Positions 22,531-26,356 of a DNA stretch of 64,000 nucleotides are shown here, piece by piece (position 1 is the stretch's first letter; every line of letters starts with the position of its first letter). This stretch comes from Candidatus Altimarinota bacterium (lineage in GTDB: Bacteria; Patescibacteriota; Gracilibacteria; BD1-5; UBA6164): the NCBI GenBank assembly GCA_028697205.1, contig JAQVFO010000002.1, positions 186,001 to 250,000 of the forward strand, given 5' to 3'. The notes under the pieces were generated by a model. The model was not told where the DNA came from. It worked only from the letters and a program-made list of their open reading frames with translations, and did no database searches. The position numbers and the translations under genes are program-made.

Positions 22531-22632
22531 ATGTCTATTCTAAGAGAAAAATCAATTATTAATCATTATTTAATTATGTGAAGAAAATTTGTTGAATGTG
22601 AAGAAATGTGAAGATTTTGTGAAAATAGGTAA
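22531..22632 (+). CDS. Possible small ORF, 33 aa
   Basis: ATG to TAA in code 25; the product is basic with two Cys (VECEEMGRFCENR). It sits between the pilC terminator and the S-layer promoter. The repeated TGTGAAGA motif inside it could also mean the DNA is regulatory rather than coding. There is no homology evidence, so this is a weak call. Confidence 0.25.
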
Positions 22633-22635
22633 TAC

Positions 22636-22665
22636 TTGTTTGACTTAAACACAAAAAAGTATAAA
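22636..22665 (+). promoter_or_regulatory. Probable promoter of the S-layer gene
   Basis: TTGTTT (22636-22641), an 18-nt gap and TATAAA (22660-22665). An overlapping TTGACT at 22640 gives a better -35 but a 14-nt gap. It would give an untranslated leader of about 245 nt before the ATG at 22916. Confidence 0.5.
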
Positions 22666-22671
22666 ATCTAG

Positions 22672-22915
22672 GCACATTAAATTTTAGATCTTTAACATCT
22701 ATATAAAAACACAAATAAAAATCCCAAGATTTTTGTTGTTGTTATGACTTTGGAAGAAAGTGGAAAACTTTAATCAATTTTCCTTTTTCTCCCAAAGTCG
22801 TGCACAATAGACTTTTGGGTTAAGGCTTTAACCTTTTTTCTAGCTTTTTAATAAAAAAGCTAATCATTTGGAGGTAATACTCCGTTATTTTATTTTTTTA
22901 ATTATAGTATACTTT
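22672..22915 (+). other. Long structured 5' leader of the S-layer mRNA
   Basis: No gene is seen here. A long imperfect hairpin spans about 22746-22799: GACTTTGG pairs with CCAAAGTC, with AGAA/TTCT and GGAAAA/TTTTCC pairs inside. It is followed by GGTTAAGGCTTTAACC, by AGCTTTTTAATAAAAAAGCT (about 22841-22862), and by GGAG/CTCC around 22870-22884. Such stacked hairpins may stabilise an abundant mRNA or control its translation. The GGAGG near 22870 is about 43 nt from the ATG, too far to act as a normal Shine-Dalgarno site. Confidence 0.55.
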
Positions 22916-25900
22916 ATGAGTAACTTATTTAAAAAAGTTACTTCTGCTGCTATGGCTTTAATGATAGTTTTATCTATCGTTAGTCCTGCTTCAGGAGTAA
23001 TGGCTGCATACTCTACTTTAGAGGCTGCTAATAAATTAGCTTCTCTTGGAGTTATAGTTGACCAATCAGCTAATCCTGCTAATTACAGATTAGGTGATTC
23101 TATAACGAGAGGAGAAATGGCTAAAATTACTATGAAATTATCTGAAACTCAAGTTGCAGATATGTGTGAATGAAAATTCAGTGATTTAACTTCTGCTGAT
23201 TGGGCATGTAAATATGCTGAAGCTGGGTTATCTGCTGGTTTCTTTGCTGCTAACGCTACTTTCAGACCAATGGATAGTGTTACTAAAATAGAAGCACTAA
23301 AAATGGTTATGCAAGCTAGAGGTATTGCAAAATCTTCAAATTCTGACTGGAAAGCTGCTTACGTAGAAGCTGCTGTTGATGCAGGTGTATTAGAATCAGC
23401 TTTTTCTGATTATGATACAGTTGCAGTTAGAGGATGGATTTTCCAAACTGCTGTTAATGCTGTAGAAGGTGTATCTACTACTGGTGATAATTTACTAGAA
23501 GATCTACTTGGTGGATTAACTGGTGATACTACTGGTACAGGTGATACTACTGGTACAACTGGTGATACTACTGGTACTACTAGTTCTACTTCTGCTTTAA
23601 CTGTAGATTTAAGTCCTTCATCTATTATGGCACAATCAGTACCTTCTGCTGGTACAGTTAATTTCGGTACTTTCGATTTAACTGCTGGTAATGAAGATGC
23701 TACTGTAAATTCTATAAAATTTGTTAGACAAGGTCTAGGTTCTAGAACTGACTTTACAAGAGTATGGATGGAAAAAAATGGTGTTAGAGTTTCTGGTAGA
23801 CAAACTGTTTGATCAGATGATTCTGTTTACATCACTTTCTCTCCTGCTTTAGTTATTAAAGCTGGTGCTACTGAGTCTTTAGATTTAATTGCTACTTTAA
23901 GTGGTAATTCTACTAACTCTCAAAATAAATTTACAATAGTTTCTGCTTCTGATATTTCTTCTGAAGCTTCTGTATCAGGTAATTTCCCTATCTCTACAGA
24001 TACTATGACTACTACTTCTTACAAAGTAGTTCCTGTTGCTTATGATGGTGCTGGTTCACCTTCTACTTATAGAGCTGGAAATACAAATGTAGAATTAGGA
24101 CAATTTAAATTAACAAACAATGCTACTGATGATAAATCAGTTACATTTAAAGCTATAACTCTTAGAAATGATGGTACAGGTGATGCTGCTGCTAACCTTG
24201 CTAATCTAGGAATATATAGAAATGGACAAAAAGTTTCTTCTGATGTTACTTTTGATGGTAAAAGCGTAACTTTTACTGTTAATGATTTAGTTGATTTTGG
24301 TAGAACTGAAACTTACTATATCAGAGGTGATGTAGTTTCTGCTGAATTAACTACAGGAGATGATTATACATTTACTTTAAGATATACTGATGATTTATCA
24401 GTTGATGAAACTGTTACTGGTTTTAGATCTACTATAACTGTAGGTACTACTGCTATGGCTACTTATAAAGTAAGTGGTGGTGATATAATCCTTTCAAAAG
24501 CTACTGATGCTCCAAGTTCACAAACTGTTGCTCCAGGAACTAATGAAGCTGTATTATTATCTGCTGACTTAAAAGTTTCTCAACCAATTACATTAGAAGA
24601 TTTAGACATAGGTTTTACTACAGCTAGTACTGGTGACCTAAGTAAAGTTTTCTCTTCTATTAAATTAATGATTGGAAATTCAGTAGTTGCTACTTATACT
24701 CCAGGAACTACTCCTATTACATTATGAGCTAAAGGTACTACTCCTTGAGGTATTACTTTAGAAGGTACTACTACTGTAAATGCTGATACAACATTAAAAA
24801 TTCTTGCTAACGTAAAAACTAATGCTCCAACAGGATCATATACATTAGCTAATGTTTTACCTAATGATTTCAAAATAAGAGAATATGCTTCTAATGGTAA
24901 TGCAATCCAAACTAACCAAATGGTTGGTTCTGCTAACTGAGTTGCTACTGCAATTGGTTCAGCTGCACTTACTATGACTAGAAATGATGGTATAGCTGAT
25001 CAACAATTAGCTGTAGGTTCTTCTAATCAAACATTGATACAATTCTCTATGAGAGCTAATGATGTATCTGATGTAACTGTAACTAAATTAACATTTAAAA
25101 CATGAGGTACAACTAATGTTGATACTCGTAATGTTACAAACTTAAGATTAATGGTTAATGGAACTACTGTTTCTACAAAAAATATGTCAACTTGATTAGC
25201 TGACTTCAACGATATAAATGTTGTTGTTCCTAAAAATACTGATGTAACTTTACAAGTTGTTGGTGATTTTACTACTGCAGTTAATGCTGGTGAAATTTTC
25301 CAATTATCTTTAAGTAATGTTGAAGCTAGAGATAGTAATAGTATTACTTTAGCTCAACCTACTCTTAATGATTGAGTAAAATATACATTTGCTTGAGCTG
25401 GAAGTGCTACATTTACACTTAACTCTTCTACTCCAAATGCATCTATGTTAACTCCATCTTCTTCTGAAGGTGAACTTGCTAGATTTACTTTAGCTGCTAC
25501 TAATGATTCATTAAAATTAACAGATTTATATGTTTACAATACTGGATCTGCTGATTTATCATCTAGTGTTAAATCTATCGGATTATATGATGTAAACTGA
25601 GCTAAATTAGCTGGAGGTTCAGTTCTTGGAACTGGTACAGTTCAATTTGCTCTAGGAAGTTCTTCTACTTTCGTAGTACCAAAAAATACTTCTAATACTG
25701 TTGTATTAATTAAAGCTGCATTTAACGATGTTACTGATGCTGCTCAAACTAATAAAACTGTTCAATTAGCTGTTGGTACTCTATCTGGAGTTACTGCAGT
25801 TTCTGGAACTTCTAGTGGTGCTAGATTAGTTTCTGAAGCTACTTGAAACGAAGTTACTTCTGTTGATAGTTCTGCTGCAATTGCTAAAGCTCACCTACTT

Positions 25901-26356
25901 GTTAGATCTAAACCAGTTGTTGCTATAAGTACTGCTGCTACTGCTAGTACTCATACATTTACTGTTACTGCTGATGCTAACAATAGAATTACTTTAACTG
26001 GAACTACTTTCTCTATAACTAATCCATCAGCTAATGTTGGTACATTCAAACTTTATAAAGATAGTGAAACTTCAGGTAATGTTATTGGTTCAGGTACTGT
26101 TGCTGCTAATGGAACTATAACTTTTGATGCTGGATCTTTCGTGCCAACTGAAATATCTGCTGGTACAACTAAGACTTTCATCTTCAAAGTTTCTCCTGAA
26201 TTACAAACTGCTGCTGTAAACGCAAAAAGAATATTTAGAGTTGAAGATGTATCATATATGGATATGATGAATACAAACGGAAATGTAGAAATTACTTCTG
26301 TAAAAGACTACACAAATGTTGGTATTCCAACTACTGAATCTACTTTCACTTACTAG
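22916..26356 (+). CDS. S-layer protein with SLH domains
   Basis: 1146 aa. The signal peptide ends near SGVMA. Three SLH-type motifs follow (about residues 35-190; RLGDSITRGEMAKI, FRPMDSVTKIEALKM, YDTVAVRGWIF), which bind cell-wall polymers. A Gly/Asp/Thr linker of repeated GDTTGT (about 203-222) leads to about 900 residues of Thr/Ser-rich beta domains, Ig-like in look. Composition and promoter suggest a major surface protein. Gly is mainly GGU/GGA with only about eleven UGA, unlike neighbours. The ATG at 22916 was chosen over an in-frame TTG at 22868 because it starts a proper signal peptide. Confidence 0.92.
23522..23577 (+). repeat. Short tandem repeat in S-layer linker
   Basis: A 17-bp unit (GGTGATACTACTGGTAC) occurs at 23522, 23540 and 23561, separated by 1 and 4 nt. 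It encodes the GDTTGT linker between the SLH region and the beta domains and could vary in copy number between strains. Confidence 0.85.

Follow-up and report, generated by a model that had tools for sequence, protein, structure and literature searches.

A long leader on a surface-layer message

The window, a stretch of 64,000 nucleotides analysed here, comes from a Gracilibacteria (BD1-5) genome that uses genetic code 25, and UGA was read as glycine throughout. It carries a surface-layer (S-layer) gene with a long, folded leader, and the question raised by this locus is whether that leader is a conserved RNA and what it might do for the message. The gene encodes a 1146-residue product with an SLH domain narrowly above the Pfam cut-off, and the gene preceding it encodes a T2SSF/PilC-type protein. 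The feature is real and bigger than an earlier note on this DNA described. The ATG lies at 22916 and the leader would be about 242 nt long, given a predicted start near 22674. It holds no separate open reading frame of at least 80 aa, and one TTG-started frame runs on into the S-layer gene. The long imperfect stem (22746–22760 with 22783–22799) and two further hairpins (22818–22833 and 22842–22861) are also where they had been placed. The GGAG/CTCC pair that the note listed is present at 22870–22883 but is not conserved, and a Shine-Dalgarno role for it is unlikely. The parts of the locus are given below; the note had seen neither the boxA at the 5' end nor the second pairing scheme, nor that two families share the element.

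22577–22623, forward strand: NGTGAA direct repeats upstream, with GTGAA at 22578, 22598, 22608 and 22619
22640–22667, forward strand: predicted promoter of the S-layer mRNA, TTGACT-16-TAAAAT, from sequence; putative start near 22674
22687–22698, forward strand: boxA GATCTTTAACAT, candidate NusB/S10 site by motif match, shared with rRNA leaders
22723–22743, forward strand: arm D, predicted to form helix P1 with arm C and the 5' half of P4
22746–22760, forward strand: arm A, the 5' strand of helix P2, which is the long imperfect stem
22783–22799, forward strand: arm B, predicted partner of A in P2 or of C in P3
22802–22819, forward strand: arm C, predicted to pair with D (P1) or B (P3)
22818–22833, forward strand: P4 GGTTAAGGCTTTAACC, a nearly invariant hairpin, present as a single site in each genome in which it was found
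22842–22861, forward strand: local hairpin AGCTTTTTAATAAAAAAGCT, found in the window's genus
22870–22883, forward strand: GGAG/CTCC hairpin, not conserved
22885–22915, forward strand: stretch leading up to the ATG, with a U-rich tract; AUG-pairing hairpin in relatives, weak in the window
22916–26356, forward strand: gene for the SLH-domain surface-layer protein, read with genetic code 25

Folded as RNA, 22672–22915 reached -60.1 kcal/mol compared with -35.5 ± 4.1 kcal/mol for shuffled sequences (z = -6.06), and none of 200 dinucleotide shuffles folded as well (0/200). The window's leader and 37 related ones, folded likewise, gave z values of -3.1 to -10.9; these 38 leaders remained from 39 elements after L011, whose contig starts within the element, was dropped. 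The antisense strand also beat its shuffles (mean z -4.0, compared with -6.4 for the sense strand, in the 39 of 50 elements of at most 200 nt), so folding energy alone cannot fix the strand. It is fixed by the promoter, boxA and the G-U changes described below. No Rfam 15 family reached its gathering score at the leader, and a permissive Rfam 15 scan returned sub-threshold matches only, for example to miRNAs, and nothing credible. The earlier statement that no known riboswitch class is present holds against Rfam 15 at both thresholds, and a riboswitch of a named class was rejected on the same grounds.

The element is conserved across two families

We call the window's own family f1, a second family of the order f2, and a further family, with two genomes, f3. 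A search with the leader DNA found matches at E ≤0.001 in 28 of 60 genomes, its own included, and 27 of the 28 belong to the same family; some of the weaker matches are probably chance. The best conserved part is P4, with the consensus GGUUAARGCUUURACY. Its 16-mer was present once per genome in 39 of the 48 genomes of the family; the reversed control was found in none of them. With variants allowed (GGTTAARGCTTTRACY), P4 was found in 63 of the 77 genomes of the order (control 0/77). With one mismatch it was found in 59 of the 353 genomes of the class, six of them outside the order (G215, G240, G261, G292, G303 and G349), where it is about as rare as control matches. An 18-mer of P4 occurred in 33 named records, 10 of them from unrelated bacteria, which fit chance because the string is so short. 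The remaining records are either Candidatus Gracilibacteria, a Candidatus Altimarinus and the complete genome CP042461.1 (28_42_T64) among them, or bins that are unplaced or assigned to Patescibacteria.

Built from 23 f1 leaders only (26 prepared, of 38), a covariance model gave matches at E ≤0.001 in 52 of the order's 77 genomes, 43 in f1 and nine in f2, so a model built on one family finds the other. It also caught an f1 genome (G014) that the P4 pattern had missed. The window gave one sense match of 87.5 bits, with weaker antisense matches at the same place. Neither the pattern nor the covariance model found the element in the f3 genomes, two in number, or in several incomplete ones.

Wherever the contig extended far enough and the context was read, P4 was on the sense strand; the gene downstream of it was either the S-layer gene itself or a group-1 glycosyltransferase gene, with the S-layer gene next. 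In genus g9 (L016, L020) only 33 nt separate the end of P4 from the S-layer ATG, and the element therefore belongs to the message. Changes in the P4 stem keep the RNA pairing through G-U, both those of C to U (g8, g23, g24 and g33) and those of A to G (g25 and g11), and on such comparative sequence evidence P4 acts as an RNA hairpin. Two other partners were considered for it and rejected: boxA, which varies by eye (CUUUAAA, CAUUAAC) whereas the 5' half of P4 does not, and 16S rRNA, where the longest shared strings were 9 and 8 nt and gave no lead.

The arms can pair in two mutually exclusive ways

The order of parts in the leader is promoter, rRNA-type boxA, arms D-A-B-C and then P4. The arms allow two mutually exclusive schemes, either D:C with A:B, giving a long rod, or B:C, giving a local hairpin. 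Arm B is common to P2 and P3, and a junction GG is common to P1, P3 and P4, which are mutually exclusive; P4 thus competes with D:C and B:C.

The test set beforehand was that relatives should share conserved or covarying structure, and the feature passed it by a covarying stem, by the swap tests below and by the f1 model that finds f2. Among 30 aligned leaders (8 of the 38 f1 leaders, each longer than 200 nt, were left out), 62 double-change cells were counted, nearly all in P2, compared with 21 ± 3.6 in shuffled data, with 0/500 as high. When the P2 partners were slid by one column, paired cells fell from 88.9% to about 60%, and RNAalifold recovered P2 and P4 unaided. Arm D aligns poorly, and an alignment-free swap test was therefore used for D:C. 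Swapping arms between 22 genera, in three random draws, weakened all three pairings, with z of about -9.7 for P2, -6.4 for P1 and -5.9 for P3 and 0/5000 permutations for each, although kinship inflates the swap and shuffle statistics to some extent. The test took the whole upstream stretch, so arm A was not chosen by its fit to B.

For P3, both sides change among 20 f2 genomes (for example CAUCAU/AUGAUG, UAUCAU/AUGAUA and UGUUAU/AUAACA), and arm swaps in these genomes weakened the pairing (0/5000). Within f1, four P3 columns held 3 double-change cells compared with 1.7 in shuffled data, which is weak support. The segment from B to P4 alone folded as the B:C hairpin in 50/50 leaders. When the sequence up to the end of P4 was folded, the predicted optimum contained P1 in 41/50 leaders and P4 in 0/50; forcing P4 cost 0.7 to 8.8 kcal/mol, with a median of 4.4. 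The long stem carries a hypervariable loop in the folded leaders, and the leaders also contain invariant single bases. Sequence comparison and folding models together point to mutually exclusive helices, each with comparative support.

The leader begins like an rRNA leader

The gammaproteobacterial boxA consensus is given as GYTCTTTAANA in PMC5725501. We collected 50 elements with a boxA-like string, 38 from f1, nine from f2 and three from genus g8. Two more (L118 and L037) were left out of the 50, the search having found no boxA or at best a divergent one, and L011 lacks it, its contig being cut before that point. A relaxed form, GNTCWTTAAMA, was present in 42/50 leaders (dinucleotide-shuffle mean 0.16). 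The exact gammaproteobacterial form was present in 13/50 (0.10 in shuffles); the window's boxA has A at the second position. TTGAC stands ahead of boxA in 42/50 leaders at a median distance of 53 nt, which would place boxA in the predicted transcribed leader, shortly after the promoter.

The 16S rRNA leaders of f1 have the same boxA block in the same place, after a TTGACA-type promoter. Fourteen rRNA loci were read in total. The block was present in all nine f1 loci (for example GTTCTTTAAAATAA and GATCTTTAAAATAA); it reads GTTCTTTAAAATAAAATAG in this genome and GATCTTTAAAATAAACAG and GTTCTTTAAAATAAACAG in relatives. Among the five f2 and f3 loci, a boxA-like string was found in two, one more was seen by eye, and two had none. 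This genome has one NusB match over the cut-off, in a 157-aa reading frame. Rho was found neither as PF07497 (0/13 genomes) nor as TIGR00767 above its cut-off (0/30 genomes of the order); no TIGR00767 match scored above 51 bits, where the cut-off is 509, and the proteins matched are presumably ATP synthase-like. Since no Rho was found, a role for boxA in shielding the RNA from Rho is unlikely. Opposing Rho is not a defining feature of folding guidance by Nus factors.

The combined promoter and boxA pattern is scarcely enriched genome-wide, with 139 matches in 48 genomes compared with 115 for the reversed control. A general boxA regulon was rejected on this count, and most of the other matches are probably chance. 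This genome had three matches, two of them in the rRNA and S-layer leaders, and two control matches. Twenty stretches with matches were read individually. Other leaders of this kind (L187 and L189, and L188 and L195; two genomes each) precede genes for a protein of about 900 aa and for a secreted-looking protein of 585 aa, and no Pfam match was obtained in the stretch tested from them.

Upstream of the promoter, at least two NGTGAA-type copies were found in 46/50 leaders, and 46 neighbouring pairs in the 50 leaders are spaced by exactly 11 bp. Direct repeats with such spacing are known as sites of OmpR/PhoB-type regulators, and the NGTGAA repeats may be a response-regulator site.

The region between P4 and the start codon

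Among the leaders compared, no conserved output device (terminator or Shine-Dalgarno) was found after P4. In raw counts, uncorrected for composition, the 8 nt that follow P4 contain at least five T in 27/50 leaders and two to four in 23/50. An intrinsic terminator at P4 was rejected, as the U6 that follows it in the window's genus is not general across genera. From P4 to the next ATG the distance runs from about 8 to 220 nt.

No Shine-Dalgarno was found near the S-layer start, and none of the 35 window genes has GGAG, AGGA or GAGG within 20 nt of its ATG. The 16S tail is GGATGGACTATCTCC in f1 (L088, L090, L092, L096 and L100) and GGATGGACTATCTCT in f2 (L089 and L093). The usual tail is GGATCACCTCC, and by sequence those of f1 and f2 are altered anti-Shine-Dalgarno tails. 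The S-layer starts have a different surrounding: a U-rich tract precedes the ATG in 38 of 48 of them compared with 6 of 35 window genes, the hairpin of the AUG region averages -4.8 kcal/mol compared with -1.6, and the AUG is paired in 33 of 48 compared with 14 of 35. Examples of the tract and hairpin are L014, L034, L036 and L114; in L114 the upstream and coding arms change together, with AACC/GGUU for ACUC/GAGU.

In f2, several leaders (L109, L111, L117 and L211–L214) show by eye further hairpins between P4 and the open reading frame, with shared loops, CUGACCA in some genera and UCCGCA in g24. Also by eye, the gene divergent from the S-layer leader in the f2 loci L110–L114 resembles RNase Y at its N-terminus.

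A model for the leader and its alternatives

The conserved position of the element, its boxA sequence, the four partly exclusive predicted helices and the P4 RNA hairpin are established by comparing and folding the sequences. We propose that Nus-steered co-transcriptional folding of the cis-acting leader sets surface-layer output, a reading to which we give somewhat less than an even chance. The leader would act as a cis-acting RNA on the S-layer mRNA or, in several genera, on a glycosyltransferase and S-layer transcript. NusB and S10 would bind boxA on the nascent RNA and hold that RNA on the polymerase during elongation. The same has been proposed for pre-rRNA; here it would keep arm D free until arm C emerges. 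The long-range rod, D:C closing A:B, would then form in place of the local hairpins B:C and P4, and the choice of fold would set the amount of message or protein. What we infer is that NusB and S10 bind, that they steer the fold, and that the fold sets output. The earlier note had proposed a structured, perhaps switching leader that controls surface output; the structure and the rival pairings stand, control of output is conjecture in our account as well, and the rRNA-type boxA had escaped it.

On rRNA, the main task of the Nus complex is described as maturation by looping boxA to the polymerase, and boxA there adjoins the upstream arm of a long-range stem (PMC4807359). The S-layer leader has this geometry in small, with boxA preceding arm D of P1. 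With no Rho found for it to oppose, boxA seems to us likeliest to serve as a guide for folding. It leads our ranking, ahead of antitermination of the nut/LoaP kind and then of a switch driven by a ligand or protein, as a tentative first choice. More tentative still is the full version of this reading, a Nus-guided folding switch in which rRNA machinery (boxA and NusB/S10) has been recruited to the surface-layer message in Rho-less Gracilibacteria, where it would choose the fold and tie coat output to the state of the machinery for transcription and ribosome-making.

Processive antitermination would have boxA and a boxB- or dfn-like P4 bind a partner, so that the polymerase passes intrinsic terminators. 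A short, almost invariant hairpin after boxA, one per genome, would suit it, and its variants keep wobble pairing as a hairpin-binding protein would require. The downstream genes are also long, about 3.4 kb for the S-layer gene, with a glycosyltransferase gene added in several genera. In lambda nut, however, boxB adjoins boxA, whereas here P4 starts 109 to 239 nt after boxA (117 to 239 in the 38 f1 leaders), and no boxB-like hairpin directly follows boxA. P4 is moreover in none of the 50 predicted optima. Antitermination is reported to target intrinsic terminators in organisms that rely little on Rho (PMC12691694), which agrees with this reading, but the terminator to be passed is hypothetical here; we consider it unlikely, if the strongest of the alternatives. 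Slightly less probable is a switch that senses a ligand or protein, as in a riboswitch or in autoregulation by, for example, the S-layer protein itself, with boxA serving general transcription only. Such a switch would account for mutually exclusive helices with comparative support and for the invariant single bases. It would need an expression platform, and none is conserved, T content after P4 and the distance from P4 to the ATG both being variable; there is also no Shine-Dalgarno to hide and no Rfam riboswitch match.

A leader for stability or processing, whose long stem either guards an abundant message or serves as a target for a double-strand nuclease, fits the long stem with its hypervariable loop in the folded leaders, and the S-layer message can be expected to be abundant. 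It leaves boxA, the near-invariant P4 and the conserved alternative pairing unexplained, and we regard it as improbable. A small RNA gene that stands alone and stops at P4, the S-layer gene having a promoter of its own, draws on the U-rich sequence after P4 in the window's genus and on a length of about 165 nt from promoter to P4. The U-run is not general, though, element and gene are linked across two families, and the 33 nt gap in g9 leaves no space for a promoter outside the element; this makes the small RNA gene very improbable. Least credible of all is a regulator that binds P4 as a palindromic operator in the DNA. A perfect 16-bp palindrome does occur in part of f2 and in g14, but every stem change seen breaks the DNA dyad yet keeps the RNA pair by G-U, on which grounds P4 as a DNA palindrome was rejected, and arm D pairs with P4 as RNA.

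Comparison with known systems

We found no report of this element in the literature searched on boxA leaders, S-layer leaders and Gracilibacteria. It is a new RNA family, a variant of boxA-type leaders with an architecture undescribed in that literature; boxA on non-ribosomal genes as such was already known (PMC5725501). It adds a structured RNA with boxA, rival folds and a near-invariant hairpin before the S-layer gene of an uncultured order, whose S-layer protein is probably among its most abundant proteins. It also offers a clean case for asking what boxA and NusB do without Rho, a question that is difficult to isolate in E. coli. Were the steering model true, Nus factors would guide the folding of an mRNA, and production of the coat would be tied to that of ribosomes.

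Long structured 5' untranslated regions also precede S-layer genes of lactobacilli and Thermus, lineages unrelated to this one; they are similar in length and structure, and we know of no boxA or switch in them. The EAR element of Bacillus exopolysaccharide operons, which is linked to antitermination, is likewise a structured RNA in a cell-surface operon, and the S-layer leader is without any credible Rfam match. Lambda nut, with boxA and boxB, and the dfn hairpin of LoaP (PMC12691694) place boxA, a short sequence-specific hairpin or both before long operons, and the S-layer leader differs from them in spacing and in the intervening rod. The leaders of suhB and other non-ribosomal gammaproteobacterial genes carry boxA in the 5' untranslated region of a protein gene as well, and Nus-complex regulation has been proposed or shown for them (PMC5725501). 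The suhB leader uses a translation block together with Rho, whereas no Rho was found in the related genomes searched here; in the S-layer leader, moreover, some 220 nt lie between boxA and the ATG, and they hold a conserved RNA of several helices. The rRNA leaders, of E. coli rrn and of the rrn loci of these genomes, are alike in having a boxA block just after the promoter and a long-range closing helix that starts after boxA, with NusB encoded. Compared with them, the S-layer leader occurs in genomes with no detectable Rho, lies on the mRNA of a surface protein, and has rival conserved folds and P4.
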